NCBI GenBank assembly: GCA_946811185.2
Contig: OX328103.1
Location: 28,068,172 to 28,132,171 of the forward strand
Length of the DNA stretch: 64,000 nucleotides
Reading direction: 5' to 3'
Origin: Hippopus hippopus
Taxonomy: Eukaryota > Mollusca > Bivalvia > Cardiida > Cardiidae
The notes below the pieces were generated by a model that made no database searches, had not been told where the DNA came from, and was given only the letters and a program-made list of their open reading frames with translations. A program made the translations under genes and the position numbers. The first letter of the stretch is position 1. Every line of letters starts with the position of its first letter. Shown in pieces: positions 1,933 to 27,021 of this stretch.

Positions 1933-1938
1933 CATATA
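1933..1938. repeat. Left target-site duplication, CATATA
   Basis: Six bases CATATA immediately precede the 5'-AGTAGTAATTATGG terminus of the Polinton and are repeated exactly at 19479-19484. A 6-bp duplication is the usual length for Polinton/Maverick integrases. Confidence 0.9.
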
Positions 1939-3001
1939 AGTAGTAATTATGGCACTATGCAGGTCAAATTGCCTGCGGCCCTATAGGGGCCAGGCCTTTG
2001 TCTTTGACAGTTCAGACTATTGTTAGAGGCCTTTGTCTGTTGGAGGTCAGACTGTCTGTGGCAATATGACGTAATCTTGCATACCTTTTGTCTGGCTTTC
2101 GTTGCCTCCCACCTGCCGAGGCTAGATGACAATTCCAAGCGTGTTTTGGCGCGTTTTGACCGATCAGGCCGGCGCCCGATTGTATAGAACCGAAAATTCA
2201 GCCAAAGCATTCGCCATTGAAAATGCATGAGAACTTTCTCTCAAAGAGGTTGCTCTACTAAAAATGCTTTTGTCTGTGAACGCTTTTACCCCCCTTACCA
2301 TTCAAAGTCTAGGTTTTGTATTGACTTTAATGAATAAAATCGTATGGTGTTTAACGCCGTTTTCAACATTTTTGTTGCACTTAAGTCGCTGCGGCCAGTG
2401 CACCTATACATGCTTTCCAGCAGTATCTTTTACCAGGGCATCATTTTCTTTCCAAGTCACTGACTGCTGTCTCACATAACCATTATTACGGTCAGCTGTG
2501 GTAGAGAAATAAATGGTTTCACAATTTTCAGTCCTCGACCTAGCCAGGGATCGAAGCCACGACCCATCTCAAGTCCTGCACGCTAGCTATTTAAGAGCTC
2601 AGCTTTTAGGTCCTCGCTTCTACATGGAAAAGTTTGCGAAAAACTTACTACTATCCCCAAATAGCGGTGGCATAATATAAAATTCCCTGTTGGTTTGATC
2701 ATTAGCTTTCTTAGAAATTCTGATTTTTTTTTTTTTATAATTCATGAGACCTTTCGATACTCTCCTGACAGAGTCGCATATCAAAATGATTTAATGTTTG
2801 AGAAATGTCGACACTCTTCCACGTGATGTCTGGCGCGATTGTATAATATCGTCTGCAAAAATTCAGACAAAGCATTCGCCTCTCATTAAAAATGCATGAG
2901 AAAATGTCGATATTCTTACAAAATAGGTCGCTTTCCGCTGATTAAAATGCGTGATGTCTGGCGCGAATGTATAATATCGTCTGCAAAAATTCAGACAAAG
3001 C
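1939..3001 (+). repeat. Left terminal inverted repeat of Polinton
   Basis: About 1,063 bp that match the reverse complement of 18417-19478 nearly base for base. Identity ends after the CAAAGC at 2996-3001. It contains a GC-richer outer third, an embedded SINE (about 2332-2612), a poly-T tract and the start of a 128-bp subrepeat array. A 93-codon ORF at 1947-2228 (minus strand) exists in both TIRs only because the TIRs are copies; I see no domain in it and do not call it a gene. Confidence 0.93.
2332..2612 (-). mobile_element. tRNA-derived SINE inside the left TIR
   Basis: Read on the minus strand it has a tRNA-like head with B-box-like GCTTCGATCCC. A body follows that aligns with the SINE at 44678-45000 (shared GACTTGGAAAGAAAAT-like and GGTGCACTGGCCGC motifs). 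The 3' tail reads GTTGAAAACGGCGTTAAACA. The family is the tRNA-headed type widespread in molluscs; I do not assign a named family. The same insertion is present in the right TIR. Confidence 0.8.
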
Positions 3002-3150
3002 ATTCGCCTCTCATTAAAAATGCATGAGAAAATGTCGATATTCTTACAAAATAGGTCGCTTTCCGCTGATTAAAATGCGTGATGTCTGGCGCGATTGTAT
3101 AGAATCGTCTGCAGAAATTCAGACAAAGCATTCGCCTCTCATTAAAAATG
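2823..3150 (+). repeat. 128-bp tandem subrepeats at inner edge of left TIR
   Basis: The phrase GTGATGTCTGGCGCGA starts at 2823, 2951 and 3079, an exact 128-bp period, giving about 2.5 units. Each unit carries the short inverted motif GTCTG...CAGAC. Only about 1.6 units exist at the right inner edge, so the array is longer on the left and extends past the end of the TIR match. Inner TIR repeats could bind replication or integration proteins, but that is inference. Confidence 0.85.
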
Positions 3151-3219
3151 CATGGAATTTATAAACACTTTATCAAACGCTTTTGTCTGTTAACTATATA
3201 AAAGGCAAACGTTTTGTAG

Positions 3220-6280: not shown

Positions 6281-6290
6281 TATATAAGAA
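6281..6290 (+). promoter_or_regulatory. Likely TATA box of polB
   Basis: TATATAAGAA lies 51-60 bases before the polB ATG at 6341, a suitable distance for a start site about 25-30 bases downstream of the box and a short leader. It sits about 45 bases after the last satellite unit. The same core, TATAAGAA, recurs before the small basic protein at 12421. Confidence 0.6.
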
Positions 6291-6340: not shown

Positions 6341-9300
6341 ATGGACGCTGTGGCTGAAATAATGGACGTTATGATAAACTCTTATACGGATCCGGATGAG
6401 CTTATGGACTTTGCAACGACCATGGGGATCCAGGATTCCGTGTCTGTAAGACTTAGACTTTTCCAGCTGAGACAACAGGAATATGATAATGAGTTTATCG
6501 AAGAACAAATGGACTTGGTGCTGCAAACCCTAGGTGGACGTATCCAGACTCCGGTTACTTTTAACGAGGAGGACATGGTCGTATCGCTAGAGTATGTACA
6601 AATACAGGAGGAAATTGATGGAGCTGTCAAAGCCCTTCTTTTTGATGACGATATGAACGAGACAGCAAGGTTGTGTTTGGAAGATGGTGATTGGGACGAT
6701 CCATTTGTTCAGACAGGGGGAGGGGAAGAGCCACGGGCGGGACCCTCCGGTCTACAGAACGATCTTTTTGATGACGATATGAACGAGACAGCAAGGTTGT
6801 GTTTGGAAGATGGTGATTGGGACGATCCATTTGTTCAGACAGGGGAAGAGCCACGGGCGGGACCCTCCGGTCTACAGAACGACAACAAACTGAAATACAC
6901 AATGAGAAAGAAGGACACCCGCACATATGCCAAAAATGCAGCAATAGATACAACATATCAAGTAAAATTGGATGAGCGGTACAATGGTCAGCGGTTAATA
7001 GACGTGAGGCAGGGACTTCATGACATGATCCAGGCAGCCCTTAACGAGGCCCGAGGACACCTACAGGGGAATGATCTAGGTCGTGTCGTGATATATCACG
7101 ATGCTTTGCACAACCCTGTTGTCGTCCCTTTACAGAAGTGGGATACCCTTGACGCTAATAGAGTTATGGAGATCCTCGAAAAGGTACTCAATAGTAACCA
7201 GGAACTTTCGATCGATGAGACCTTTGATATAATAATAGGGACCATTGACCTACCTAAAGGAGGCAAGCGAAAACATATCATACGTATTAAAGGTGAAAAC
7301 ACTTCATTGGATTTAAAACGCTCGGTAGTGACTATTGAGAATGAAGATAAAATGTGTATGGCAAGGGCCATTGGAGTCAGCTGGGCAAAATTAAAGAGGT
7401 GTACCAAGGAAGAATGGGAGGAGGTAACGAAAAACAGACAGGGAAAAAGTAGCTTGGAGTTGGTTTTAGAATATCGAAAAGTCCCCTTGTCTTACTATAA
7501 CGACCTTGTCAAAAAGAAGAAGAAACACCAAGGACAGCTGGCAAGGGCTCTGTGTAAGATGGCAGGCGTACCCATAGATCGAACAGCTAGTCTCAACGAT
7601 GTGGAGGCATTTGAGGAAATCCTAGGAGTACGCGTGATGGTCATCAGCGCTCGCCTAGGTAATAAATTTATTACTGGTCCTAGCAGTGACGGGCGTCCCT
7701 GTATCTACGTGTACTTGGTGGACGACGACCACTTTCATGCCATAACAAACATCACTGGGTTTTTTAGCGACTCCTATTTTTGTGAAAAATGTCTCAAACA
7801 CTATAGTAATAGGGAATATCACCAGTGTGCAGAAAAATGTATAGTGTGCAAGAGGGACCACTGCCCTAAAACGAACAAGACTCTGAGGTGCACAGATTGT
7901 AACATGGACTGTAGGTCAGATGATTGTTACAAACAACACAAGAAAGTACCCTTACACAAAAATGGAAGGAGAAAAGGTCAACCCAGTGGGCCTTCCCAGT
8001 GTGAAAAGTGGTGGAGGTGTTTCAGGTGTTACAAGGTACTAAGGACGGACATAAGGAAGAAGGAGGACCATGTGTGTGGGGAATACTTTTGTAAGACTTG
8101 TAAAAAGTATGTGTTGGACGATCATCAGTGTTATTTAAGAGCGAAAGAATGTAAGGACAAGTTTATACCTAAATATATATTTTTTGATTTTGAGTGTAGT
8201 CAGGATGATATGAGTGAGTGCGAGAATGGATACATACCGCAAAAGAAAATAGAATGCGCAGATTGTCAACCATCACAGGTATGTAAGTCTTGTTCTAAGT
8301 GTAAAAACTGCAACACGTCATGGTGCGGTAGAACTACGCATCGTCCCAACTTTGTCTTAGCTCATTCGGTATGCCCAAAATGTATTGACAATGAATTGAC
8401 TGCCAAATCAGTATGTAAGAGATGCGGTAGCCGTTGTAAAAAATGTCAAAAAAATCTGGATGAGAAAGATTTGGGACCTTGTCCAGGGACATGTGGCTTT
8501 AGAGAAGTCACTTTCCAGGGACATGATACTGCTGAACAGTTTGGGCAATGGTTATTTACGGAACAACACGAGTACTGCAAGGTGGTTGCTCATAACATGA
8601 AAGGTTATGACGGTTACTTTCTGCTAGAGTACCTCGTTGATCAGTCATTACGGCCAGACAAAATTATTTACAACGGGTCCAAGATAATGTACATGACAGT
8701 AGAGCGAGACTTACATATCAAGGTAATAGACAGTCTTAACTTCTTACCCATGAAACTGTCAGCATTACCCAAAGCATTTGGTTTACATGAATTGAAAAAA
8801 GGGTGGTTCCCACATTATTTTAATACCAGAGAGAATCAAAATTATGTTTGGCCCTACCCTGATGCTAAAGATTATGGTTACGATTTCATGGGTGAGAAAG
8901 AAAGAAGCGAGTTAGTAGAGTGGTTGAAACAGAGACAGTGTGAAGTTTTTGATTTTAGAAAAGAGATGTTAGAATATTGTAGAAGTGATGTTGATATATT
9001 GAGACAAGCATGTTTGAAATTTAGATATTTGTTAATGAATGCAACGGGAGAAGAAAAAGAGGTCATAAATGGAAAGGGAAAGACTGAAAAAAGGTGGTTT
9101 GGGGCCGTAGATCCTTTCGACAGTGTTACGATTGCATCAGTATGCATGAATGTGTTTAGAAGTAAATTTCTAGAAGAAAAGTGGAAGGTACAATTGTATG
9201 ACACTGATGAATGGATCCCAGCCAAACTATGTGAGGGAGTATTGTATGTACTGGTGAAAGATGAATGGGTGAGTGCAGCAAAATTGAAAGTCAAGGGTAA

Positions 9301-11110
9301 AGAATTTGTAAGCACCCCGATAGCAAAGATTCCTCCCAGTGGATACAAAGAACAATACAGTAAGGTGTCAATTCAGTGGTTAGAGTGGCGAGCGCTTACA
9401 GACCATGTACACATTCAGCATGCACTGAATGAAGGTGAAAAAAAGATACCAGGAACACGATACAAATTAGATGGATATTGTGAAGAAACACACACAGCAT
9501 ACGAGTACCACGGATGTGTGTTTCACGGATGCCCTGTGTGTTTCCCAGACAAACGAGAGGACACGTATCACCCCCTCACCAATCAATCACTGAATGAATT
9601 GTATGCTCTGACTCTAAAAAAGAAAGCATACCTCGAGCAATTAGGCATGAAGTATGTGTGTATTTGGGACCATGACTTCAAAAAATTAAAGGACGAAAAT
9701 GAAGAACTCAAAGAATGCATTGCACAATTAGATGTAGCTGACCGATTAGATCCAAGAGAGAGTTTCTTCGGAGGGCGTACTAATGCCAGTCAACTCTATT
9801 ACAAAACCAAAGAACATGAACAGGTCAAATACGTAGACTTTACAAGTTTGTACCCTTGGGTGAACAAGTATTGTCGGTATCCCGTAGGTCACCCCAAAAT
9901 CTTGACCAAAGACTTCGGGAAGCTTGAGGAGTATTTTGGTATTGCCAAAATAAAGACATTACCCCCGAGAGGGCTGTATCATCCAGTCCTCCCCTATAGA
10001 TCAAATGGCAAACTGAAATTTCCTCTATGTCGTACCTGTGCGGATACCGAGAATCAAGATTCATGTACATGTTCTTCTGAAGACAGGGTTTTAATTGGCA
10101 CGTGGTGCATCCCCGAGATAAAAACGGCTCTAAGACTGGGTTACACACTAGAAAAAATATATGAAGTATACCACTGGGAGGAAACAACACAGTATAATCC
10201 TGAGACGGGTGATGGGGGGTTATTCGCCAAGTATATCAACACGTTTTTGAAATTTAAGCAAGAGGCGAGTGGCCCTCCTGATTGGGTCAAAACGAAACAA
10301 GACATGACAAAATACATGGAAGATTATCATAAAAAAGAGGGTGTATTGCTGGATCAAAACAGCATTGTAAAAAACCCTGGCAAAAGAGCTCTGGCCAAAC
10401 TTTGTCTCAATAGCTTTTGGGGTAAGTTTGGACAGAGACTCAATATGCGTCAAACCAAAATATATCACGAGAGTCAAGCAAACTTATTTTTTCAAGTATT
10501 TTCTGATCCTACAAAAGAGCCTCTGAACTTTCATATACTCTCAAATGATATGATACAAATAGAGTGGATTTATAAACATGACTTTCACCCCGAAGACAAC
10601 GAAACAAACATTTACTTGGCGACCTTTACAACATGTTGGGCCCGATTAAAATTGTACAGTGTGCTCGAAAAGTTGAATAAAAGAGTGTTGTACTACGACA
10701 CGGACTCTGTCATTTACGTGAGTAGACCCGGAGAGTTTGATCCTCCCTTAGGGGACTACTTGGGTGAGTTGACGGATGAACTGGAGCAAGGAGAGCATAT
10801 TGTAGAATTTATGTCAGGAGGTCCAAAGAATTACGCATATAAGACCAGTACCAACGAGGAAACATGTAAGGTCAGAGGGTTTACTTTGAACTACACTAAT
10901 AGCAAACTAATCAATTTTGAAGCCGTGAAAGCTATAGTAACAGATTCAAAAAGTAGTTCAAATATTGTTGTAACCAACCCATGTAAAATATGTAGAGACA
11001 AAAGAAAGAGGAAATTGTATAATAGAGAAGAAAAGAAAAGTTATCAAATGGTGTATACAAAGCGAAGGAAACTAGACAATTATGACACTGTACCATATGG
11101 ATATGACTGA
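6341..11110 (+). CDS. polB: Protein-primed DNA polymerase B of Polinton
   Basis: 1,589 residues, intact. The 3'-5' exonuclease motifs are visible: FFDFE near residue 615, AHNMKGYD near 750, YCRSDVDIL near 879. The polymerase motifs are DFTSLYP near 1166, NSFWGKFGQR near 1357 and YYDTDS near 1453. A segment with YEYHGCVFHGC, typical of Polinton polymerases, lies between the exonuclease and palm. Residues 480-720 hold many CxxC pairs (zinc-ribbon-like). The N-terminus has an OTU-protease-like signature: Cys339 in a DKMCMARAI context and His464/His466 in DDHFHAITN. An internal duplication covers about residues 100-181. It should replicate the element using a terminal protein primer. The start is the first Met after the TATA box. 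Confidence 0.97.
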   Translation: MDAVAEIMDVMINSYTDPDELMDFATTMGIQDSVSVRLRLFQLRQQEYDNEFIEEQMDLVLQTLGGRIQTPVTFNEEDMVVSLEYVQIQEEIDGAVKALLFDDDMNETARLCLEDGDWDDPFVQTGGGEEPRAGPSGLQNDLFDDDMNETARLCLEDGDWDDPFVQTGEEPRAGPSGLQNDNKLKYTMRKKDTRTYAKNAAIDTTYQVKLDERYNGQRLIDVRQGLHDMIQAALNEARGHLQGNDLGRVVIYHDALHNPVVVPLQKWDTLDANRVMEILEKVLNSNQELSIDETFDIIIGTIDLPKGGKRKHIIRIKGENTSLDLKRSVVTIENEDKMCMARAIGVSWAKLKRCTKEEWEEVTKNRQGKSSLELVLEYRKVPLSYYNDLVKKKKKHQGQLARALCKMAGVPIDRTASLNDVEAFEEILGVRVMVISARLGNKFITGPSSDGRPCIYVYLVDDDHFHAITNITGFFSDSYFCEKCLKHYSNREYHQCAEKCIVCKRDHCPKTNKTLRCTDCNMDCRSDDCYKQHKKVPLHKNGRRKGQPSGPSQCEKWWRCFRCYKVLRTDIRKKEDHVCGEYFCKTCKKYVLDDHQCYLRAKECKDKFIPKYIFFDFECSQDDMSECENGYIPQKKIECADCQPSQVCKSCSKCKNCNTSWCGRTTHRPNFVLAHSVCPKCIDNELTAKSVCKRCGSRCKKCQKNLDEKDLGPCPGTCGFREVTFQGHDTAEQFGQWLFTEQHEYCKVVAHNMKGYDGYFLLEYLVDQSLRPDKIIYNGSKIMYMTVERDLHIKVIDSLNFLPMKLSALPKAFGLHELKKGWFPHYFNTRENQNYVWPYPDAKDYGYDFMGEKERSELVEWLKQRQCEVFDFRKEMLEYCRSDVDILRQACLKFRYLLMNATGEEKEVINGKGKTEKRWFGAVDPFDSVTIASVCMNVFRSKFLEEKWKVQLYDTDEWIPAKLCEGVLYVLVKDEWVSAAKLKVKGKEFVSTPIAKIPPSGYKEQYSKVSIQWLEWRALTDHVHIQHALNEGEKKIPGTRYKLDGYCEETHTAYEYHGCVFHGCPVCFPDKREDTYHPLTNQSLNELYALTLKKKAYLEQLGMKYVCIWDHDFKKLKDENEELKECIAQLDVADRLDPRESFFGGRTNASQLYYKTKEHEQVKYVDFTSLYPWVNKYCRYPVGHPKILTKDFGKLEEYFGIAKIKTLPPRGLYHPVLPYRSNGKLKFPLCRTCADTENQDSCTCSSEDRVLIGTWCIPEIKTALRLGYTLEKIYEVYHWEETTQYNPETGDGGLFAKYINTFLKFKQEASGPPDWVKTKQDMTKYMEDYHKKEGVLLDQNSIVKNPGKRALAKLCLNSFWGKFGQRLNMRQTKIYHESQANLFFQVFSDPTKEPLNFHILSNDMIQIEWIYKHDFHPEDNETNIYLATFTTCWARLKLYSVLEKLNKRVLYYDTDSVIYVSRPGEFDPPLGDYLGELTDELEQGEHIVEFMSGGPKNYAYKTSTNEETCKVRGFTLNYTNSKLINFEAVKAIVTDSKSSSNIVVTNPCKICRDKRKRKLYNREEKKSYQMVYTKRRKLDNYDTVPYGYD
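6638..6883 (+). repeat. In-frame tandem duplication within polB
   Basis: Two near-identical units, 126 bp then about 120 bp, start at 6638 and 6764. They encode an acidic segment of about 40 residues (LFDDDMNETARLCLEDGDWD, then a Pro-Ser-Gly linker) twice in a row. The second unit lacks two codons of a Gly run. The high nucleotide identity points to recent slippage or unequal exchange. Both units stay in frame, so the protein tolerates them. Confidence 0.92.
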
Positions 11111-11474
11111 TGTAATTTTTTTTTTTTTTTTTTTTGTTCGTGGGTTGTTCAATGTCAATCATTTTTCAAAAAAAGGTGTTAGTCATTTTTCAAAAAGTGT
11201 CACTCATTTTTCAAAAAGTGTCACTCGTTTTTACGTTTTTATACTTTTACAGGTAAATTCCCATAGGGTCTGTTTCAAAAAGTGTCACTCATTTTCCTAA
11301 AAGTGTCACTCATTTTCAAAAAAGTGTCACTCATTTTCTTAAAAGTGTCGCTTATTTTTCTAGATACCAACTGTTGTTTATTTTATTTGTTAACGTGATA
11401 ATTGTATTGCTTATAAATAAAAAATTGTAAGAATGAGTTTCTTTTTGTGTTTTGAGTTAATCTAACGTAAGAAT
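11111..11474 (+). repeat. Post-polB spacer with 21-bp repeats
   Basis: A 19-base T run follows the polB stop, then about seven degenerate copies of a 21-base unit between 11158 and 11352, with core AAAAGTGTCACTCATTTT. They are in two clusters (about 11158-11230 and 11270-11352) separated by a non-repeat gap. A TATA-like TTATAAATAAAAA at 11411-11423 could serve the next gene at 11475. No coding sequence is supported here. Confidence 0.75.
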
Positions 11475-11735
11475 ATGACAGAAACTCCCGAAAAAGAAAC
11501 GTTTTTACGTTTCCCTAAACCTGACGAAGAAAGCCATAGTGACAAGTGGCATTTACTGGGCACCCGTGTCCCCCAAGCAGAGATTGTCTACTTTTGTCAG
11601 ATGATCATAGTGTACATCATTATTATTACGTCCATCATTAACCTATCAGTGCAAAACGGGTCGACCGAGCTTTGGGTATCACTCTTGAGTAGCAGTATCG
11701 GGTATGCTTTGCCTAACCCTAGACTTAAAAAATAA
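11475..11735 (+). CDS. Conserved small membrane protein of Polintons
   Basis: 86 residues. A polar N-terminal 35 residues is followed by a strong transmembrane segment (about 36-57: FCQMIIVYIIIITSIINLSV) and a second, weaker hydrophobic stretch (about 63-79) ending in a Leu-Pro-Asn-Pro motif. Short proteins of this layout are common beside the packaging ATPase in invertebrate Polintons; I know of no assigned function. A capsid-associated or membrane role is inference. The stop codon overlaps the next start in TAATG (11733-11737), so this gene and the ATPase are tightly coupled. The ATG lies three bases after an ACGTAAGAAT motif. Confidence 0.75.
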   Translation: MTETPEKETFLRFPKPDEESHSDKWHLLGTRVPQAEIVYFCQMIIVYIIIITSIINLSVQNGSTELWVSLLSSSIGYALPNPRLKK

Positions 11736-12388
11736 TGGCCGTCCCTCTTCCATTCGAACCATGTTCTAGTATGTGTATTAGCGGACAAACTGGTAGTGGT
11801 AAAACCCAATGGGTGTACCGCTTTTTGAAACAAGTAAACCTCATGTACGGACGGGACCCCCCTTCTCATATTCTCTATTGCAACGGTATCCACCAAGACT
11901 TGTTTGATGTCATGGAGAGTTCCATTCCAAACTTTGACAGTAAGCAAGGACTACCTACTGCAGAAGAATTGGATGACTTCACAAGAGACAAAAAACACAA
12001 GTTAATCATTTTAGACGACCTAATGCACGAGGTCATGCGGAGTAAAGAAATGGAGCTACTGTTCACCCAAGGCTGCCATCACAGAAAAGTATCGGTGATT
12101 ATGATCACACAAAACTTATACCCTGGGGGTAAACATGCCAGAACTATAGCTTTGAATACATGGTATCTGGTGCTTATGAAAAATATTCGTGACATATCTC
12201 AAGTAGGAGTGCTAGGACGGCAGCTTTATCCCGGTAAATCCGGAGTGTTTATGAAGGCTTACGAAGATGCCCTTAATACGAGACACGGTTATTTCATAGT
12301 GGACATGTCCCCTTACTCCGACGACAAGTACCGTTTAAGGACTCGTATATTTCCCAACGAAGATCCTATTGTGTACCGTTTGACGTAA
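11735..12388 (+). CDS. Genome-packaging ATPase (A32/FtsK-HerA type)
   Basis: 217 residues. The Walker A motif GQTGSGKT is at residues 17-24 and Walker B LIILDD is at about 90-95, with an acidic pair D94/D95. A downstream ITQNLYPGG segment matches the sensor-like Thr-Gln-Asn motif of this family. Length and motif spacing fit the compact packaging ATPases of Polintons and related viruses, which drive DNA into the capsid. It shares a TAATG junction with the upstream membrane protein. A CGTAAGAATG motif spans its stop codon. Confidence 0.95.
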   Translation: MAVPLPFEPCSSMCISGQTGSGKTQWVYRFLKQVNLMYGRDPPSHILYCNGIHQDLFDVMESSIPNFDSKQGLPTAEELDDFTRDKKHKLIILDDLMHEVMRSKEMELLFTQGCHHRKVSVIMITQNLYPGGKHARTIALNTWYLVLMKNIRDISQVGVLGRQLYPGKSGVFMKAYEDALNTRHGYFIVDMSPYSDDKYRLRTRIFPNEDPIVYRLT

Positions 12389-12420: not shown

Positions 12421-12744
12421 ATGGTAGAACTAATTAAACAGCAACGTCACTTTTTATATTTAGTGGCCAACACTACAGCCGACCAGAGAAAAGCGCTTTT
12501 AAAAACTATTACCCGTCAACAGCTAAGGGCGCTTAGTCAAATTGCGTACAACATTATCCGGTTCAAAGGTAGATTGACACTTACGGAAAAAGCCACCTTA
12601 AAGAGGCAGAGACGCTTTATTTACTTGCTTGGAGATCGTAACACGGGGTTTGTTAAAAAGAAGGAAGCTATCCAACATAAACAACGTATTATCCATACAT
12701 TGGTGAAGATTGCTTCAGCCTACTTACAACCCGTATTACAGTAA
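12421..12744 (+). CDS. Small basic core-like protein (paralogue of the 15085-15456 gene)
   Basis: 107 residues, rich in Lys, Arg and Leu, mostly predicted helical by pattern. It has a block ITRQQLRALSQIAYNIIRFK, then a basic stretch and an RRFIYLL segment. The same order (LTNRQLKAIIEVAKRIL, then basic, then RRRLLLRTL) occurs in the minus-strand protein at 15085-15456, so the two are distant paralogues. Proteins of this type recur in invertebrate Polintons; a nucleoprotein/core role is likely from charge but unproven. A TTATAAGAAT motif lies just upstream of the ATG. The stop and the next start overlap in TAATG at 12742-12746. Confidence 0.7.
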   Translation: MVELIKQQRHFLYLVANTTADQRKALLKTITRQQLRALSQIAYNIIRFKGRLTLTEKATLKRQRRFIYLLGDRNTGFVKKKEAIQHKQRIIHTLVKIASAYLQPVLQ

Positions 12745-13058: not shown

Positions 13059-14321
13059 TTATTGTATATACACATTTCTCGCTTTATCGATTGTAAGTAT
13101 TTCTGGAAAGGTAGCGTACAGCAACAATGTCACACTCTCTGGTAAAGGTTTAGCAAATTTGATTTCCAAACGGCAAAGACCTCTTCTTTTTGTGTTGAAA
13201 GAATAGTAGGGATCGATATCCAGCACATATAGGCAGTATCCTTGCTTGTACTCTTTGTATGTGATGTTGATATCATTTCTACAGGAAGTGAGGGTCTGAT
13301 AACAGTCGGTGAAATGATTTCCTTCAAAATTAGGTTGCAAAGGTTGCGATGGTACGGATTGGCCATCAACGAAGAAACCGAGGTAACTGCAGTCGTAATG
13401 TTTCAGGTTGAATGGGTTTGTTTTGTAGTCTCCGTTATATGAAACGCTCGCAACCGTCCCTATGATGATTTTGTTTGGCACCCTACCTTGAAATATATCG
13501 TCTGCGTGAAAACTATATTGTCCTTGCGCTATCGAGGTTGTTTTTATCTCTGAGCGGAAATATGGGTACATAGCGGGAGTGTCCTGAATCATTTTGTCGT
13601 GAGCCAGAAGCAAATCGTTCTGTAACCGCTGAATACAGAGCTTGAAACGGGCGTCAACGATTTGCACCTTGTAATTCGGAGTAAACGCATCTGTAATGAT
13701 TCGAAAGGCATCGGATGCTTGCCAAAATTTAAGCCCCATTTGCACTCCGTTAATAAGCAACTTGGGTTGTTGAAACAAGTCCACCGGGATACTTCCTTCC
13801 AGATCTATAATTTTACCACCCTTGGTCTTTTCATATCTTTGGAATAAACCGGTATTTGATCCAGTTTTGGGGTCGCTATCGTCCAGATTCCGATAATCCT
13901 TGTAGAATAATTGACTGGTCAGAAAAGCTTCCTGTATAGATTGATTGGTATTTAATAAGGTGTCAATGTAGGTCTTAAACGGATGCGTGGTTCCGCTATT
14001 CGGGAGTGGTTTTTGTTGTAAATGAATGTCCAGCTGTCTGAAAATGGTGTGCAAAGGTAAATTGATAAGTCCCAGCGTATCATCTTCTGACACGGGTGTA
14101 CCGTCTTGTAAAGCGAGTCTCAATTTCACCCTCAATTTACATTCCTTCAAGTTGATGTAGGCGCTGGCCTGTGGCGGTATATTAAATTCCAAGCTCGATG
14201 AAGAATCGGTTACCGGATTAATGGGTCGGAATTCGATCCAATCTTTCGATAACAAGGACGAATCTTTTGGGATCGGATTAAATAACGATAATTCTTCACT
14301 GTGCTGAATTTTACTATTCAT
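13059..14321 (-). CDS. Major capsid protein (double jelly-roll)
   Basis: 420 residues, intact. It opens with a DWIEFRPINP segment, followed by LEFNIPPQASAYINL and then HTIFRQLDIHLQQKPLPNSG. This is the pattern of Polinton major capsid N-terminal jelly rolls, where an Ile-Pro-Pro strand is followed by a valine-asp strand and a Pro-phe/Tyr-lys/arg helix start (HPFKTYIDTLLN). In the second half the NKIIIGTVASVSYNGDYKTN segment matches the conserved second jelly roll. The same region is recognisable in the decayed copy at 45630-46560, but the two are clearly diverged. Nine bases separate it from the upstream gene on its strand. It should form the capsid hexons. Confidence 0.88.
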   Translation of the reverse strand: MNSKIQHSEELSLFNPIPKDSSLLSKDWIEFRPINPVTDSSSSLEFNIPPQASAYINLKECKLRVKLRLALQDGTPVSEDDTLGLINLPLHTIFRQLDIHLQQKPLPNSGTTHPFKTYIDTLLNTNQSIQEAFLTSQLFYKDYRNLDDSDPKTGSNTGLFQRYEKTKGGKIIDLEGSIPVDLFQQPKLLINGVQMGLKFWQASDAFRIITDAFTPNYKVQIVDARFKLCIQRLQNDLLLAHDKMIQDTPAMYPYFRSEIKTTSIAQGQYSFHADDIFQGRVPNKIIIGTVASVSYNGDYKTNPFNLKHYDCSYLGFFVDGQSVPSQPLQPNFEGNHFTDCYQTLTSCRNDINITYKEYKQGYCLYVLDIDPYYSFNTKRRGLCRLEIKFAKPLPESVTLLLYATFPEILTIDKARNVYIQ

Positions 14322-14330
14322 GCTAATTTT

Positions 14331-14675
14331 TCAAAACGCCCAGTCGGGATCTTTGCGATACGTTTTGTGAGTCTTCTTACGCTTGATATTCTTACGATCT
14401 TCGTCAACACCGTTCTTACGTTTTATTTGAGATTTTGCCCTATCAACTACTTCGGCTAATGGGCTCACCATTTTTACCTGAGGAGTTTTGACTTTTTCAA
14501 GTTTTTCTTCCATATCTCGCAGCAGTTTATTCTTTTCTTCTAGTATTTTCTCCAAATTCCTTATTTGATCTGGGATGTGGTCTTTCGGTTTAAAATAATC
14601 AATCCAATACTCCACATCTTCTTTGTACGGAACCCACTTCTGTAGTTTTGAATCAAAGACGTCTATGGAACCCAT
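14331..14675 (-). CDS. Basic coiled-coil Polinton protein
   Basis: 114 residues. The N-terminal 45 residues are hydrophobic and aromatic. A coiled coil follows (about 48-75: RNLEKILEEKNKLLRDMEEK), and a very basic tail ends in DPDWAF. Its start overlaps the minor capsid gene by 13 bases and its stop is 9 bases before the major capsid start, so it is part of the structural gene chain. Three CGTAAGAA motifs occur in its own basic tail and encode Arg-Lys. Probably a virion or scaffold component; family not recognised. Confidence 0.6.
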   Translation of the reverse strand: MGSIDVFDSKLQKWVPYKEDVEYWIDYFKPKDHIPDQIRNLEKILEEKNKLLRDMEEKLEKVKTPQVKMVSPLAEVVDRAKSQIKRKNGVDEDRKNIKRKKTHKTYRKDPDWAF

Positions 14676-15088
14676 GATTTCTTGAAATGAAGGACACAGT
14701 GAAAATCGTTCGAATTCAAATCAATCGGTTTTAAATCTTCGCCTTTTAACGACAGCCTAATAGTGTTAAATTTCTTGACACTCACGGGTCTATAACGTCG
14801 ATGAAGACATTCCGTAAATTTAAATTTCTTGTATCTTGTTTCGATTTCTATATTGGTGAGAACGGGTTGTAACTTATTCCTGACAAACGTTTCCTCTATA
14901 ATGTCACAATTCAAATACAACCGCTTACTTTGAGGTGTAAAGTCGCAGGTCAATGACGATTCTACCAGAGCACATAACCAACTTCCTTCTAAAATATAGT
15001 CCTTAGAAAACTGGAACAAGAAATCTGCGTTATTCTTACGTATATCGATAGATTCTGCGGAATTTAAATACAAGTAAAACTCTGTCAT
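14663..15088 (-). CDS. Minor capsid (penton) protein, single jelly-roll
   Basis: 141 residues, beginning MTEFYLYLNSAESIDIRKNN. It has a beta-rich pattern: ILEGSWLCALVESSL, then LYLNCDIIEETFVRNKLQPV, then RYRPVSVKKFNTIRLSLKG. This succession, with the Cys-Asp-Ile-(Val/Ile)-Glu-Glu strand before a Lys-Leu-(L/Q)-Pro turn, is the one seen in minor capsid proteins of invertebrate Polintons. It sits directly upstream of the coiled-coil and major capsid genes. The start shares ATGA with the stop of the gene before it (15085-15088). Confidence 0.82.
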   Translation of the reverse strand: MTEFYLYLNSAESIDIRKNNADFLFQFSKDYILEGSWLCALVESSLTCDFTPQSKRLYLNCDIIEETFVRNKLQPVLTNIEIETRYKKFKFTECLHRRYRPVSVKKFNTIRLSLKGEDLKPIDLNSNDFHCVLHFKKSWVP

Positions 15089-15456
15089 TCTTCTCTCCTT
15101 GTTCTCAATTGGTCTAGTATAGTAGGAATGAGATAAACTGGGCGTAATAAAATGGGTATAAATGAATGAAATCGTCGAAGTAAAGTCTTCTTACGGGTTG
15201 ATGAAACGTTATTTGAGCATAGTGTGCGTAACAATAGTCTCCTTCTTTCAAAAACTTGAACATCTCTTCTCATTGGATTAATGACTCCATTAAGTATACG
15301 TTTTGCCACCTCGATGATAGCCTTTAGTTGACGATTCGTTAAATTCTGCAGTAAATTCTTCCTTACCGTTGTTTCGGTCTCTTGTAGGTGAAGTAAATAA
15401 GCGATTTGTAAATAGACTGTAGAGTGTTCCATGATTGAATCGGTTAAAATACTCAT
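15085..15456 (-). CDS. Basic core-like protein (paralogue of the 12421-12744 gene)
   Basis: 123 residues. The block LTNRQLKAIIEVAKRILNG is followed by RRDVQVFERRRLLLRTL, then STRKKTLLRRF and a hydrophobic C-terminal region. Order and spacing match the plus-strand protein at 12421-12744, showing an ancient duplication within the element. Both ends use ATGA overlaps: with the TBP gene stop at 15453-15456 and with the minor capsid start at 15085-15088. A core or DNA-condensing role is suggested by charge alone. Confidence 0.68.
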   Translation of the reverse strand: MSILTDSIMEHSTVYLQIAYLLHLQETETTVRKNLLQNLTNRQLKAIIEVAKRILNGVINPMRRDVQVFERRRLLLRTLCSNNVSSTRKKTLLRRFHSFIPILLRPVYLIPTILDQLRTRREE

Positions 15457-16016
15457 TCCTTCTTACGCGTATAGAGTTCGAGTTCAATTAGTGTGGGACA
15501 AACAATCTCGTCCTCTTTTTGTGAAGAGGTTACACCCGTTATGACCACTTTCCCTGTATGAAAACAACAAAAATGCACCCCTTCCCTTTTAAAGTTAAGA
15601 GAAGGAAATAACTGGGGTTCGTATACGACATCTTTATCGACAGACAAACGCTTCAAATCCAAATCCGAACTGAGGGTATGGCTCATAGACATGGTTAAAA
15701 GTTTCACGTCCGATAAATTCACTGGATATCCACAATTCTGTATCAGTCTCGCATATTTCCGTATTCGTTCGTACCCCTCTCTTTTACTCGAAACTTTGCC
15801 GTTACAGTTGATAATACCGTTAGAAAACACTAAACAGTTTCCTCCAGCTTTTCTGTGTTGCCATATCAGTCCGGGAAATCGTGCTGGATCATACCGTACA
15901 TTCGTTATTTTGGAGCAGAGTTGTCTTAAATCAATAGGACAGTTGAGTTGAGCGCTGTAAAGCACGTTTGTGATGATCATGATCGTTTGACTGTCTAGAC
16001 ATAAATGATAGAACAT
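15453..16016 (-). CDS. TATA-binding protein homologue encoded by the Polinton
   Basis: 187 residues forming two direct TBP repeats (about 14-100 and 105-180). The second repeat has the clearest signature, VYEPQLFPSL then FHTGKVVITG; the first has ARFPGLIW then FSNGIINCNG. The four Phe that kink DNA in TBP are present at F47, F64, F137 and F152. A Tyr-Ala-Arg-helix (KYARLIQNCGYP) between the repeats also fits. The saddle is complete and no residue break is seen, so TATA binding is plausible. It lies between the integrase and core/capsid genes and ends in an ATGA overlap with the next gene. A TATA-like box just upstream could place transcription initiation inside the ORF, so Met13 (codon at 15978-15980) is an alternative start that keeps the entire fold. 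Origin from a host TBP or a viral lineage cannot be told here. Confidence 0.9.
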   Translation of the reverse strand: MFYHLCLDSQTIMIITNVLYSAQLNCPIDLRQLCSKITNVRYDPARFPGLIWQHRKAGGNCLVFSNGIINCNGKVSSKREGYERIRKYARLIQNCGYPVNLSDVKLLTMSMSHTLSSDLDLKRLSVDKDVVYEPQLFPSLNFKREGVHFCCFHTGKVVITGVTSSQKEDEIVCPTLIELELYTRKKE

Positions 16017-16032: not shown

Positions 16033-16041
16033 CTTTTTATA
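16033..16041 (-). promoter_or_regulatory. TATA-like box before the TBP gene
   Basis: TATAAAAAG on the minus strand lies only 17 bases before the first ATG (16016). If used at the normal distance of about 30 bases, transcription would start near 16005-16010 and the first usable Met would be Met13. It suggests the TBP gene itself has a TATA promoter. Confidence 0.45.
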
Positions 16042-16052
16042 TTCTCGGTTGT

Positions 16053-17165
16053 TTACGAGTATTGCTTAATATCAGTTTCCGGTATCCAGCTGTCATACTT
16101 TTTTGGCCAGTGTAACCAGCGCACCAGGACTTCCTGTTTCTTATTGCGTGTCCTTCTTTTCAAAATTTTTTCGATGCTAAAGTCGGTACCGTCGTCAACG
16201 TTTATGGCTTGTAATTCTTGTTCGTAAAATGTACCATCAATTTCATCGTTGTCCCAGTCTACTAATGTGTAAATTGGAAGTCCTTGTCTTTTGAAACGTG
16301 ATCTGATTTTGAAAATCTCCCTAGTCCATTTTTGCGAGTATTCTCTGTCAAATACGGACCTGATGTGTGACAATCGTACAGTCTGGCCGATTTTATATTT
16401 GAATTTTTTTATAACGGGCTTTTCCCCTTTGCTTCCTTTGGTTCTAATGAGATACTGTTGAAGACGACTTTCCCCTTCATTTTTCACGGAAATTGCTGCT
16501 GGGTTTTCTCCAAGACTCCTGTGGTGAGTGTGATTGTAACTATGTACAAAATCCTGTAAAATGTCAATGTATCTACTAGTTCTGTTTTTGAGCAGGTATC
16601 GAAAAATCTTGTGTTTTAGCGTTTTAATAACTCTTTCCGCGTAATTTGCTTTTGTTTCCGTATTATATGCGTACATATGATGTATACTTTGACTATTTAA
16701 ATATTTATTTACTTCTTTACTTCTAAATTCCATTCCTCTGTCCGTACGAATTGTGTTTGGCTTTTTGGGGCCTGTCAGTATACGTTTCAATGCCATGACT
16801 ACATCAGCGCCTCGCTTACTCTTAACAGGTTGAACATAAAGAAAACGAGAAAATACATCGATAACAATCAAAATGTATTTCACACCTTCGTTATGCTTCT
16901 GTAAATTGGCCATGTCCATAAGATCCATGTCCCATTGACTGTCGATGCCATTTACAATCACCCTGGAACGTTTAAAGCGGCGTCTAGCACCCCTGGTCAG
17001 AGAATACGCTTCTTGATTCTGCAACCATTGGCGTATTCTGTGCCTGCCAATTTTGTATTTACCCTCGTCTTTAACATGTTGATAGAGTTTTTCAGGACCA
17101 CCATAGCTAGCGGGAGATTTTAAGTCAAAATACAAAGAAGACAAATATTGTTGCCAGTCAGACAT
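16053..17165 (-). CDS. Polinton integrase (RVE family) with C-terminal chromodomain
   Basis: 370 residues. The N-terminal 75 residues form a zinc-less DNA-binding-like region (KIGRHRIRQWL). The RVE catalytic core has D81 (QWDMDLMDM), D142 (TDRGMEF) and E177 (NYAERVIKTLK), with the last two 35 residues apart. A C-terminal chromodomain spans about 325-368 (FSIEKILKRR ... VRWLHWPKKYDSWIPE), expected to guide insertion to methylated chromatin. This enzyme should make the 6-bp target duplication seen at the ends. It is followed after 36 bases by the TBP gene and preceded by a 212-bp spacer (17166-17377) without a gene. Confidence 0.95.
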   Translation of the reverse strand: MSDWQQYLSSLYFDLKSPASYGGPEKLYQHVKDEGKYKIGRHRIRQWLQNQEAYSLTRGARRRFKRSRVIVNGIDSQWDMDLMDMANLQKHNEGVKYILIVIDVFSRFLYVQPVKSKRGADVVMALKRILTGPKKPNTIRTDRGMEFRSKEVNKYLNSQSIHHMYAYNTETKANYAERVIKTLKHKIFRYLLKNRTSRYIDILQDFVHSYNHTHHRSLGENPAAISVKNEGESRLQQYLIRTKGSKGEKPVIKKFKYKIGQTVRLSHIRSVFDREYSQKWTREIFKIRSRFKRQGLPIYTLVDWDNDEIDGTFYEQELQAINVDDGTDFSIEKILKRRTRNKKQEVLVRWLHWPKKYDSWIPETDIKQYS

Positions 17166-17377
17166 GTTTATTTATTACATAGACATCCATACATTCTTAC
17201 TACATCAAATAGAAATAGTAAATAGAGAGGTTTCTTTCGTTTTCTATATACAAGCCAACGAGCCTTTCAACACCCTCCGCGGCGTCTCTTCGCAATTGTC
17301 TGTATTTCAACCACAATTCGAAGTCATTCATTGTTGTCACAAATATAAGAATGAGTCCGAACATGTTCACATCGGTT

Positions 17378-17767
17378 TTAGAAAAAGGCTGAATTCAAAG
17401 CACTCCAGTTATATGTAGAACCGTCACGGGACAATCTTCCATTGGTAACAGACGCGTTTCGTTGTGTATCACACCTTGAAGTGATTTGACTCGTGTATCC
17501 CGTCATTTTCAAATATATACAGGACGGAGACCATTTCTCGTGCTCTTCCCAAGGATCGTCCTTTTCCTCCCATGACATTATGTTGACACCACAGGCAAAA
17601 CACGTCACTTTATCCGCAGTACCGGTGTAAAAGAAGCCCGCTTTTGCTAATGACCATTTCTCAGGCTTTATTTGCTTCGACCAGTGCTCATACGTTTGTA
17701 GTCTATCTTCACATAACATCAAGGCTGGCTTCGAATATGCAGTCACTTTTGTAGAATCTTTGAACAT
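17378..17767 (-). CDS. BIR-domain protein (inhibitor-of-apoptosis like)
   Basis: 129 residues with a single BIR domain at about 21-90. The zinc ligands are in perfect order: C56-x2-C59-x16-H76-x6-C83. The entry motif is RLQTYEHW and the core is AKAGFFYTGTADKVTCFACG, as in type-2 BIRs that bind caspases or IAP antagonists. There is no RING or CARD; the tail of about 35 residues is Ser/Thr-rich. It lies between the PC4-like and integrase genes in the right arm. Such domains are used by animal DNA viruses to block host cell death; here that role is inferred. Probably captured from a host. Confidence 0.93.
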   Translation of the reverse strand: MFKDSTKVTAYSKPALMLCEDRLQTYEHWSKQIKPEKWSLAKAGFFYTGTADKVTCFACGVNIMSWEEKDDPWEEHEKWSPSCIYLKMTGYTSQITSRCDTQRNASVTNGRLSRDGSTYNWSALNSAFF

Positions 17768-17809: not shown

Positions 17810-18295
17810 TTACCAGTTTCCGTTATCGTTAGGGTTACATTCAGAACACCGCAACGCCCCTAACTGGTTCATATGATCACTTTGAAGGTAACAGGGAATG
17901 ACAGCGTCCAACTCGGGTAGATTCCTACCAATCTCTGACACGTGTTTTTTAAGAGAGTTATATTCAGCGGGTCTTAAGCAGATACCCTTTTTGGTCGGTA
18001 CCACTTCATTGTCTGGTTTCCAATACTGTCTTATATCTACACAAACGCTGTTTTCACCGATACTGCAATAAACGTTTCCTCCTAGGTGAGCGCTGTATGC
18101 TTTTTTACCGTGTAATGCTTGATCAACAAACTCAGAGGCATCTACCAAATTCTTCCATCTCATAAGCGTAAGACTAATGCCTTTCTTAGTAGGTATGTCT
18201 TCCTGCCATTCCCTGATATCGACTCTCAGTTCACCCCTCCATTCACTGACCTGTACGTAGCGTTCGTTACCGAGACTAAATTTACATCTAACCAT
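17810..18295 (-). CDS. Tandem PC4-domain (p15 coactivator/SUB1-like) protein
   Basis: 161 residues with two PC4-like single-stranded DNA-binding domains. The first (about 5-55) has ERYVQVSEWRGELRVDIREW then TKKGISLTLMRW. The second (about 68-123) has CSIGENSVCVDIRQYW then TKKGICLRPAEY. The Lys-Lys-Gly-Ile strand and the Asp-Ile-Arg strand are the PC4 hallmarks and occur in both. The C-terminal 30 residues hold Cys135, His141, Cys150 and Cys153, a possible zinc site. PC4 assists RNA polymerase II initiation with TFIID; its presence with a TBP homologue suggests one transcription module. It is the first gene inside the right TIR, 43 bases before the BIR gene. Confidence 0.85.
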   Translation of the reverse strand: MVRCKFSLGNERYVQVSEWRGELRVDIREWQEDIPTKKGISLTLMRWKNLVDASEFVDQALHGKKAYSAHLGGNVYCSIGENSVCVDIRQYWKPDNEVVPTKKGICLRPAEYNSLKKHVSEIGRNLPELDAVIPCYLQSDHMNQLGALRCSECNPNDNGNW

Positions 18296-18416: not shown

Positions 18417-19478
18417 GCTTTGTCTGAATTTTTGCAGACGATATTATACAATCGCGCCAGACATCACGCATTTTAATCAGCGGAAAGCGACCTATTTTGT
18501 AAGAATATCGACATTTTCTCATGCATTTTTAATGAGAGGCGAATGCTTTGTCTGAATTTTTGCAGACGATATTATACAATCGCGCCAGACATCACGTGGA
18601 AGAGTGTCGACATTTCTCAAACATTAAATCATTTTGATATGCGACTCTGTCAGGAGAGTATCGAAAGGTCTCATGAATTATAAAAAAAAAAAATCAGAAT
18701 TTCTAAGAAAGCTAATGATCAAACCAACAGGGAATTTTATATTATGCCACCGCTATTTGGGGATCGTAGTAAGTTTTTCGCAAACTTTTCCATGTAGAAG
18801 CGAGGACCTAAAAGCTGAGCTCTTAAATAGCTAGCGTGCAGGACTTGAGATGGGTCGTGGCTTCGATCCCTGGCTAGGTCGAGGACTGAAAATTGTGAAA
18901 CCATTTATTTCTCTACCACAGCTGACCGTAATAATGGTTATGTGAGACAGCAGTCAGTGACTTGGAAAGAAAATGATGCCCTGGTAAAAGATACTGCTGG
19001 AAAGCATGTATAGGTGCACTGGCCGCAGCGACTTAAGTGCAACAAAAATGTTGAAAACGGCGTTAAACACCATACGATTTTATTCATTAAAGTCAATACA
19101 AAACCTAGACTTTGAATGGTAAGGGGGGTAAAAGCGTTCACAGACAAAAGCATTTTTAGTAGAGCAACCTCTTTGAGAGAAAGTTCTCATGCATTTTCAA
19201 TGGCGAATGCTTTGGCTGAATTTTCGGTTCTATACAATCGGGCGCCGGCCTGATCGGTCAAAACGCGCCAAAACACGCTTGGAATTGTCATCTAGCCTCG
19301 GCAGGTGGGAGGCAACGAAAGCCAGACAAAAGGTATGCAAGATTACGTCATATTGCCACAGACAGTCTGACCTCCAACAGACAAAGGCCTCTAACAATAG
19401 TCTGAACTGTCAAAGACAAAGGCCTGGCCCCTATAGGGCCGCAGGCAATTTGACCTGCATAGTGCCATAATTACTACT
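18417..19478 (-). repeat. Right terminal inverted repeat of Polinton
   Basis: 1,062 bp, the reverse complement of 1939-3001. It ends in CCATAATTACTACT-3' directly before CATATA. It carries the mirror-image SINE, poly-A tract and about 1.6 units of the 128-bp subrepeat. The 93-codon ORF at 19189-19470 is the mirror copy of 1947-2228 and is not called as a gene. Confidence 0.93.
18805..19085 (+). mobile_element. tRNA-derived SINE inside the right TIR
   Basis: Mirror copy of the SINE at 2332-2612. The head with GCTTCGATCCC is near 18860, the body motif GGTGCACTGGCCGC is near 19015 and the tail GTTGAAAACGGCGTTAAACA is near 19050. The first bases of the tRNA head are degenerate compared with the intact copy at 44678-45000. 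Confidence 0.8.
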
Positions 19479-19484
19479 CATATA
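19479..19484. repeat. Right target-site duplication, CATATA
   Basis: Exact copy of 1933-1938, immediately after the CT-3' end of the Polinton. Confidence 0.9.
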
Positions 19485-24840: not shown

Positions 24841-27021
24841 ATGGTTGGGAAACGGATTAAGAATATTGAAGAAATTACAGCTTATATAAAAGTTCGCACA
24901 AAACTCGGGTCATTCGGTAATGCAGATTTTTACTGAATTGGGGGAAGTTTATGGGTCTGATAAGGTATCTTATGAGACAGTTCGTAGGTGGAGAAAGAAA
25001 TTTCTGACTGGCACAGAGTCCGTCAAAGATGCAGCAAAATCTGGCCGACCTGTGACTTTAACAGGCAAGGCAAATGTCTCAAAAGTCAGGGAAATAATTG
25101 AAAGTGATGGCAGATACACGATTCGTGATATTGCCAACGCTGTTGGCATATCACTATCGCGGGTGCATTTCATTTTGAAGCGTATTTTGAAAGTACGAAA
25201 GATTTCTGCCAGATGGATACCGCATATATTGACAGATGACCAAAAACGGGTACGAGTACAAACCGCTAAGCAATTGCTCAAAATGTTTCCCAAATTCAAT
25301 CAAAGACAAGTTGCAAACGTTGTTACTGGTGACGAAACATGGGTTCACTATTTCGAACCAGTAAGAAAAATTGGAAACAAAATATGGCTAACTAAACACG
25401 GTAGAAGGCCTGTATTTGCCAAAAGAAGCATAAGCACAAAGAAGGTCCTTTATTGCATATTCTTCTCATGTGATGGTATAGCCGTAGTAATTCCGGTGCC
25501 GAAGGGCAAAATTGTTACAGGTCGGTATTACCGACATATTATACTAAAAAAGCTCAAGAAATATTATCTTAAACGACGCCCTGTGTCAGGATTTAGGCAT
25601 GTTCGTCTACTTCATGATAATGCTCCATCACATACATCTGAGCTGGTGAAGCAATTTTTGAAGTCGGAGAAGGTTACTGTCTTGCCACACCCACCATACT
25701 CTCCAGATCTATTCCCAGGGTTTTCCTTGACGCACGATTTTGTGCGTTTTGACGCATTCTTAAGGAAAATGACGCGCTATTTTTTCAACAGTGCGTCATT
25801 GTTGACGCACAAATACGGTAAGAGTTACTAACGATCGTATATACTACCGACAATGTGACACCGCGAGTAGATGAAAAATCTGGAGTACGAGTAAAATTGG
25901 GACGAAACACTGGACTGTGTATATCGATTTTTCCAGAAAACCGTCCGTCTTTACACGGCTCGAAACTAAACCAGTCGATCTCTAATGAAAACAATATGGC
26001 TCTGTCAAAATCGACGTCATTCTTGCTGTCTGCAAGGAAGAATAGTCCTTAAACAAAGATCAGACGATAAAACGCCTGGTAAGAGCACTTAGAAAACCCT
26101 TTCAAGGTCTCGAGGGTTTACCGTAAATTAACTTAAGAGATACACTTTTATATTCGTTAAAAACCGCGGCATGAATGCGACCCGTGTGTCAAACCAGAAT
26201 CGGCAGTTTAATTGATTAAAGTCGTGTATTTTCGGCCGAAATGGGTATCTCTATCAAGATAAACAATAGAGACTTCCCAATCCGGCGGACAACAAGCTAT
26301 TTTCACCAATAAAACGGTCAGTTCCTGTGATAAAAACAAAATAAAATAACACTTTACCACAGATAGAAGATGCACAAACTTCAAAATTCAACTCTTGTGC
26401 AAGATCAAAACACTAGCGGTCATGATGATACCCTTGCAAGATTAAAATCACTTTGAGATCTGACAGCTTGTCTGCAGCTATCTTGGGCATATTTGCTTGT
26501 TAAAAACAGGTGTACATAACGCATACTCCAGATACTCTTTATGAAAAAGGTACCATCTAGGCTGTAAGCTCCCTCTATATAGAGAATCTCTGGTGTTATT
26601 GTTTCTCTATCACCATGTAATAAAACATATAGGGTATAAAAAATATTTACAGTGCATAGAAAACAAAAATAAACACACATTATTTCACAAATAGTAGCTG
26701 TTGTCTAAGCCAATTACATTTTGTTGTGACCCCCGCAAATTCCAAAATGACCCCCATTGTTTTTGACTAGGGGGTCACAATGACCCCCTATTTTTGTTGT
26801 CAAGGGAAAACCCTGTAGCCCCATGCGACTTTTTTCTTTTTCCAAAACTTAAAATGTTCTTATCTGGTCGTCGTTACAAGTCCCGACAAGCCCTTGGCTC
26901 AGCCATCAGTCAGTGCCTCAGAGGTGTACCTAAATCAGCATACCGTGACGCATTTCAGAAATGGATTCAGAGATTGAAATTATGTATTTCAAACCGTGGA
27001 GAATATTTTGAAGGGATGTAA
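24841..27021 (+). pseudogene. Mariner transposase, broken
   Basis: The natural start is probably ATG 24841 (opening MVGKRIKNIEE). One extra G in a GGG run near 24905 shifts the frame, after which the open frame continues from about 24920. The helix-turn-helix region is followed by the catalytic VTGDETWVHYFEP, then LLHDNAPSH and PYSPDL. After PYSPDL the frame is cut at 25716 by an inserted element and resumes at about 26816 with APCDFFLFPKLK, which supplies the third Asp (mariner D,D34D spacing). The C-terminus ends at 27021. Function: cut-and-paste transposition at TA sites, lost here. Confidence 0.92.
25716..26815. mobile_element. 1.1-kb non-autonomous DNA element nested in the mariner
   Basis: The ends are CAGGGTTTTCCTTGAC and, inverted, GTCAAGGGAAAACCCTG. 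It interrupts the mariner transposase. The CAGGG/CCCTG termini resemble hAT elements, but the flanks TATTCC/TAGCCC do not give a clean 8-bp duplication, and a TA duplication is also possible. No transposase is inside. The left end is rich in TGACGCA motifs and the right end in TGACCCCC motifs. Confidence 0.8.

Follow-up and report, generated by a model that had tools for sequence, protein, structure and literature searches.

A Polinton lineage in the bivalve Hippopus hippopus that encodes a TATA-binding protein

How do Polintons activate their genes in animal cells? The question takes a particular form in a 64,000-nucleotide stretch of the Hippopus hippopus genome (the window), where a minus-strand reading frame resembling the TATA-binding protein (TBP) lies among Polinton genes. 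Does the element own this gene, and what might it use it for? An earlier note on this DNA had proposed that the frame encodes a two-repeat TBP with all four intercalating phenylalanines, that it sits in an intact Polinton between the integrase and capsid genes, and that, if functional, it would let the element choose its own promoters in the host nucleus.

The TBP gene and the element around it

The gene and the limits of the element are:

15453..16016, minus strand: TBP gene, 187 aa as listed; a probable start ATG at 15980 gives 175 aa
1939..19478, unstranded: Polinton element, 17,540 bp, with ends AGTAGTAATT...AATTACTACT
1933..1938, unstranded: left target-site duplication, CATATA
19479..19484, unstranded: right target-site duplication, CATATA
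1939..3154, plus strand: left terminal inverted repeat (inner boundary approximate), taking in 128-bp tandem units
18417..19478, minus strand: right terminal inverted repeat (inner boundary approximate)

The reading frame matches the TBP family (PF00352) at 92.1 bits against a curated cut-off of 22.9, in two stretches that are the two lobes; a profile of the element TBP's own family scores human TBP at 107 bits, plant TBP at 106, yeast TBP at 101 and archaeal TBPs at 90-97. The predicted structure is the saddle, and the window copy keeps all four intercalating phenylalanines and the YEPxL motif. The proposed two-repeat TBP was thus confirmed by sequence, Pfam match and predicted fold; the saddle is predicted confidently, and no non-TBP family fits the frame better. 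A chance reading frame was rejected on the TBP family, sequence and profile matches. Judged from its sequence, the protein is of the eukaryotic type. Cellular eukaryotic TBPs are its best sequence and fold matches and share the two-lobe saddle, the four phenylalanine positions and the TFIIB stirrup motif. Unlike them, the element TBP (23-29% identical in the TBP rows compared) is without a long N-terminal region, has a polar groove face and a reversed putative TFIIA contact, and is encoded by a mobile element. The TBPs of giant DNA viruses (Heterosigma akashiwo virus 01 and EsV-1-53 in the viral model library) are also virus-encoded proteins of this fold, but they match the element TBP more weakly (the best named one with E 1.6e-11 and 20% identity).

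The element is bounded as a Polinton/Maverick is: its inverted repeats have AG...CT termini and are flanked by a 6-bp target duplication, which is the length of Polinton target duplications. The termini read AGTAGT...ACTACT, the CATATA duplication is perfect on both sides, and the two repeats differ by one mismatch over their first 797 bases, beyond which the register is lost. Between them lie the following genes:

17810..18295, minus strand: PC4/p15 transcriptional coactivator, a single protein of 161 aa with two PC4 stretches
17378..17767, minus strand: BIR (inhibitor-of-apoptosis domain) protein, by family match
16053..17165, minus strand: integrase, rve core plus chromodomain, by family match
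15085..15456, minus strand: p123, 123 aa; its start overlaps the TBP stop
14663..15088, minus strand: p141, 141 aa, conserved; its start overlaps the p123 stop
14331..14675, minus strand: p114, 114 aa, with a basic tail
13059..14321, minus strand: major capsid protein, 420 aa, double jelly-roll by predicted fold
6341..11110, plus strand: DNA polymerase B (PolB), viral/organellar type, by family match
11475..11735, plus strand: p86, 86 aa, ending at the ATPase start
11735..12388, plus strand: A32-like packaging ATPase, by family match
12421..12744, plus strand: p107, 107 aa

A Pfam scan of 10 of the window's ORFs identified PolB (PF03175, 1.5e-45), the rve integrase (PF00665, 8.4e-13) and the packaging ATPase (Pox_A32, 1.7e-06), and gave no match to an adenovirus-type maturation protease or a minor capsid protein among these 10. 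The capsid model (pLDDT 81.8) matches the major capsid proteins of virophages and giant viruses. The minus-strand order is PC4, BIR, integrase, TBP, p123, p141, p114 and capsid, and from TBP to capsid the neighbouring genes overlap or almost touch; the position claimed for the TBP gene, inside a Polinton with intact ends and between integrase and capsid genes, was borne out. This layout is like that of vertebrate Polinton/Mavericks as described in PMC8097293, with two inward-pointing modules on opposite strands, PolB, ATPase, integrase, capsid and AGT-repeat ends of the kind found here. The core gene list given there contains no TBP, and TATA, transcription and inhibitor of apoptosis are absent from the available text of that source.

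Several further features of the locus were recorded. The TBP/p123 (15453-15456) and p123/p141 (15085-15088) junctions on the minus strand are 4-base stop-start overlaps, and reinitiation on one shared mRNA could be the mode of translation. Although encoded on opposite strands, p123 (minus) and p107 (plus) resemble each other (24% identity, E 6e-5) as distant duplicates of a single gene would. With PC4, the element carries a general transcription factor besides TBP; a relative in another subfamily is 80% identical over 64 aa. A tandem array (4941-6216, 5.7 copies of a 226-bp unit) lies immediately before PolB, and two arrays of a 21-bp repeat (AAAAGTGTCACTCATTTTCC-like; 3.7 and 4 copies) at 11153-11362 lie immediately before the p86/ATPase promoter. 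At 3964-4602 the minus strand encodes a 212-aa protein with an HExxH motif and weak family matches only, and outside the element (24920-25831, plus strand) lies a Mariner-like DDE transposase ORF. The Cotesia bracovirus protein R9XLG5 shares 28% identity with the capsid protein, a hint that a locus of a wasp virus may contain a capsid gene of Polinton origin.

Copies, selection and relatives

When the 1.07-Gb genome (34 contigs) was searched with the TBP, 150 of 217 candidates were scored, giving at least 150 copies of the gene in one animal genome. These are 89-100% identical, 76 of them (the window's included) at 100%, and four carry one stop. Neighbouring genes were examined in 34 of the 150 scored copies, namely the 20 top-ranked and 14 chosen to span lower identities. 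Integrase, TBP, p123 and p141 were found in all 34, and part of the capsid gene also lay in the stretch taken of 33. The TBP frame is present and open in related copies, against the outcome (absent or interrupted) that the earlier note had named as refuting. Element ends, copies and neighbour genes likewise led us to reject a stray host TBP pseudogene. BIR was found in 23 of the 34 copies, while the stretches taken of the remaining 11 showed none; the difference probably reflects a gain or loss specific to a subfamily.

Selection was compared in 10 of the 34 copies, which also served to compare the TATA box of TBP and the GTAAGAA motif of integrase. For TBP, dN/dS of the window against L021, L029, L030 and L031 was 0.224, 0.182, 0.201 and 0.238, with no stops; closer copies, with few changes, gave 0.45 (L032), 0.27 (L033) and 0.19 (L034). 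Against L021, L030 and L031, the corresponding values were 0.08, 0.07 and 0.16 for p141, 0.11, 0.17 and 0.21 for the capsid gene, 0.12, 0.16 and 0.16 for integrase, and a looser 0.67, 0.58 and 0.38 for p123. The TBP gene is under purifying selection, and it is a fixed, element-owned part of one Polinton lineage. In the diverged copies L029 and L030, read without gaps, integrase and capsid genes contain stops and TBP is open; two cases are too few for an argument of host use.

In the protein database, the window TBP has 111 matches, one of which is a worm TBP, and a profile of distant members has 305, of which 120 were listed. Combined, these comprise 169 distinct relatives among the matches listed, most of them without a name. 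The named TBP relatives include two from Mercenaria mercenaria, one of them called TATA-box-binding protein-like 1 (P0039), and the capsid relatives named among the matches listed come from Mercenaria, Ruditapes, Saccostrea and symbiont MAGs; the nearest named relatives are from these three bivalve genera. One TBP relative is filed under a MAG of Candidatus Thiodiazotropha, which we take to be a clam symbiont, and capsid or TBP genes also appear under Sedimenticola and Solemya symbiont MAGs or records; host DNA contamination is the probable source of these. Six contig sizes, with the same source tags, occur identically in the TBP list (111) and among the 120 of 165 capsid relatives that were listed; over 5000 trials, control lists with jittered sizes gave a mean of 0.5 coincidences and never more than 4. 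Because these sizes coincide, the two genes are probably on shared contigs, and TBP and capsid are probably linked in relatives down to ~49% TBP identity.

The worm protein P0111 (Caenorhabditis nigoni B9Z55_011165) is a gene model in which a TBP core (Pfam 3.6e-49) is joined to a part like the C-terminal portion of the Polinton's capsid protein (24% identity, E 8e-14); it is a chimera, an insertion or an annotation artefact. IMG/VR was scanned with the TBP and its alignments A1 and A3 and with the capsid protein and its alignment A2, and prokaryote genomes with A1 and A2; none of these scans found a relative, and a phage-family library gave no match for TBP or capsid.

The DNA-reading face and the promoters

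Residues were counted in 149 rows, comprising the window and 148 of the 169 listed relatives; 21 relatives shorter than 160 aa or containing X were dropped, and the worm protein P0111 had been excluded beforehand. Rows were aligned to human TBP, yeast numbering was fixed by the four phenylalanines, and n varies with gaps. The phenylalanines of the N-lobe are almost invariant (position 99 in 145/146, 116 in 146/147), and those of the C-lobe are found in 112/148 (190) and 125/149 (207). The groove-reading positions are altered alike in nearly all relatives: V122 is N/Q in 123/147 and T124 in 134/147, N159 is T in 144/148, V161 is S/T in 147/148, V203 is H/N/T in 145/149, and L205 is C/N/S/T in 139/149. 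This shared alteration of the predicted DNA-reading surface suggests that the element uses its TBP to activate some of its own genes. E93, presumably a TFIIA contact, is reversed to R/K in 129/146. Position 186, which we take to be a TFIIB contact, is acidic (E/D) in 129/148. Position 188, a TFIIB contact according to PMC12529657, is E/D in 144/148 and Q in the window copy, whereas in the viral TBPs of one survey the host TFIIB contact has diverged (PMC7221094).

The promoter elements found in the window are:

16035..16041, minus strand: TATAAAA, the TBP gene's TATA box, located in the spacer that follows the integrase stop and 61 nt 5' of codon 13
6281..6287, plus strand: TATA box TATATAA, 60 nt 5' of PolB
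17194..17200, minus strand: GTAAGAA of integrase, 35 nt 5' of the start; in 33/33 readable copies
11412..11433, plus strand: p86 promoter region, with GTAAGAA at 11427 and, at 11412, TATAAA where four other subfamilies have TGTAAA
12385..12391, plus strand: GTAAGAA of p107, 36 nt 5' of the start; it overlaps the ATPase stop

Of the 12 window starts tested, three (PolB, TBP and integrase) have TATAWAD 30-100 nt upstream and nine do not; a random 70-nt stretch of the element contains it in 4.6% of cases. With p86, which lies outside the 12 starts and has TATAAA too, the window lineage has TATA boxes before PolB, TBP, integrase and p86. Among five subfamilies, an exact TATAWA lies ~60 nt 5' of PolB in three (the window's included), the other two having a TATA-like sequence or TATTTAA, and TATA is found in four at TBP and in four at PC4, where the window is the one without it. 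TATTWAA was found between -100 and -30 at 0/12 window starts, and a herpesvirus-type TATT reading was rejected on this count.

An unguided k-mer count gave GTAAGAA as the top upstream 7-mer (6/14 starts, all sense; a count reached by any 7-mer in 2/400 shuffles) and CGTAAGAA as the top 8-mer (5/14 starts; 0/400 shuffles); the 6-mer and 9-mer counts were unexceptional (P 0.105 and 0.09). On both strands together, GTAAGAA occurs 14 times in the 17.5-kb element versus 11 times in the remaining 46.5 kb of the window, and it is also present within the inverted repeats (2913, 3041 and 18499). Its position is held in all five subfamilies at integrase (-33 to -35), p86 (-45 to -48) and p107 (-36). It also occurs in all five at p123, p141 and capsid, where it sits within overlapping coding sequence (Arg-Lys codons), so that integrase, p86 and p107 are the clearest sites. 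GTAAGA is similar to a 5' splice site; with a splice-donor reading in mind, we found no AG between GTAAGAA and the integrase start in the window.

In four of the five subfamilies, integrase and p86 both have TGTAA(A/T) 16-18 nt ahead of GTAAGAA; in the window's lineage, an abundant one, the p86 box is TATAAA, not TGTAAA, and integrase is without a TGTAA box before GTAAGAA. Integrase has TATA elsewhere (TATATAG at -85 in the window, TATAAA at -131 to -136 in three other subfamilies), two subfamilies carry GTAAGAA before PC4 (at -98), and the two promoter sets are not clean. Further stretches (8, 4 and 10) entered the promoter comparison, L049 being without a p86 start and L029 without an integrase start. 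In this wider set, in which copies within one subfamily are not independent, GTAAGAA precedes integrase at 33/33 readable starts and p86 at 13/13, the p86 box is TGTAAA in 8/13 and TATAAA in 5/13 (window-type lineage), and TGTAAT precedes integrase in 10/33. The classic TGTAAA-reading TBP mutant is said to carry changes at 194, 203 and 205; because these positions are identical across five subfamily sequences while the p86 and integrase boxes differ, box and TBP show no visible co-variation. Plant TBP repeat-2 mutants and a mutant human TBP also work with TGTAAA (PMC10005294).

How the element may use its TBP

The account toward which we lean, by a small degree, is one in which the element TBP, made early and helped by PC4, would act together with host TFIIB and RNA polymerase II (Pol II) at non-canonical late boxes and produce an early-to-late switch. 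Early, host TBP would read the TATA boxes of PolB, TBP and PC4, and the TBP gene would be expressed from a canonical TATA promoter; from ordinary knowledge, this step is plausible. The element TBP would then bend DNA through its kept phenylalanines, while its kept stirrup residues would recruit host TFIIB and Pol II, whose use we infer because the scan of element ORFs turned up neither an RNA polymerase gene nor one for TFIIB. Its polar groove-reading face may accept non-canonical boxes, favouring the integrase, packaging and capsid promoters, so that late in the cycle it would start these genes with the host factors at non-TATA boxes. The switch would result from this box preference, and the two-domain PC4 next door may aid the same step. 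The late step is proposed from residues and motifs. Since the window lineage has TATAAA at p86, the late code may be a loose one that does not exclude TATA, and host factors may be engaged less than this account assumes, given the reversed putative TFIIA contact. The earlier note's proposal that the element chooses its own promoters is supported, as an inference, by the residue pattern and the promoter motifs. A tentative idea, which we consider doubtful, is that this lineage uses two tiers of promoters in the animal nucleus: TATA would mark the polymerase, TBP and PC4 genes, and TGTAA(A/T)-N10-GTAAGAATG would mark integrase and packaging, the second set being read by an altered-specificity element TBP with host TFIIB and Pol II; if true, it would be a natural counterpart of the laboratory TGTAAA-reading mutants.

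Other uses of the protein have to be weighed against this switch. The element TBP could bind ordinary TATA boxes and add to or replace limiting host TBP, with autoregulation at its own promoter, as the kept phenylalanines and YEPxL of the window copy and the four TATA boxes of its lineage would allow; with the groove-reading positions altered in nearly all relatives and TATAWAD missing at 9/12 starts, we consider this unlikely. It is less probable still that the protein is directed at the host, competing for TFIIB or promoters and dampening host transcription while BIR helps against cell death. Kept TFIIB contacts with a reversed putative TFIIA contact are what a competitor might have, and a BIR gene is nearby, but the N-lobe phenylalanines are almost invariant and BIR was not found in the stretch taken of 11/34 copies.

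The fold might instead bend DNA outside transcription, for example at the element ends in replication, integration or packaging, and both the place of the gene between integrase and capsid and the GTAAGAA copies in the inverted repeats fit such a role. We think this very improbable: most relatives keep the TFIIB-contact residues, PC4 is a companion gene, and the herpesvirus TBP mimic acts in transcription (PMC12529657). That the gene is a recently captured host passenger, now drifting, is hardly credible, even though one host genome was searched and most scored copies there are nearly identical; TBP dN/dS is ~0.2, the family is diverged with shared fixed changes, and the gene is probably linked to the capsid gene on separate contigs.

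The element TBP has a partial parallel in the TBP mimics of beta- and gamma-herpesvirus late genes. KSHV ORF24 and EBV BcRF1 keep the phenylalanines, have a polar interface and use host Pol II, and ORF24 has Asn at 122 and 124, Ser at 205 and a kept N159, as described in PMC12529657. According to the same source, ORF24 is without TFIIB contacts, has additional domains at both termini and a chain that extends to residue 752, and binds late promoters with a TATT motif, whereas the element TBP has 175-187 aa, no extra domains, kept TFIIB contacts and no TATTWAA at the 12 starts. Unlike TRF2, a TBP paralogue that lost an intercalating phenylalanine (PMC10005294), the window TBP keeps all four.

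In the open-access literature we found no animal Polinton described as encoding a TBP, and on that basis the absence of such a description from print is likely. In the available texts, Polinton and TATA-binding protein occur together in a paper on an algal genome, where TBP is sporadic in integrated viral elements of Cymbomonas (PMC10675990), in one on mirusviruses, 59% of whose genomes have TBP (PMC10132985), and in a review with an unrelated use; no word beginning TATA occurs in the available texts of PMC8097293, PMC11071308 and PMC3671162. Sequence, predicted fold, neighbourhood and copies together support a TBP encoded by an animal Polinton. In practical terms, at least one bivalve gene set labels such a gene (P0039) as a TATA-box-binding protein-like 1 of the host. 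Many eukaryotic DNA viruses are commonly considered to have Polintons as ancient relatives or ancestors (PMC7805220), and this element would join giant viruses, mirusviruses and herpesviruses as a small, self-integrating carrier of TBP, one that seems to keep the host TFIIB contact. A Polinton lineage whose general transcription factor has a re-tooled reading face makes the activation of Polinton genes in animal cells directly testable.
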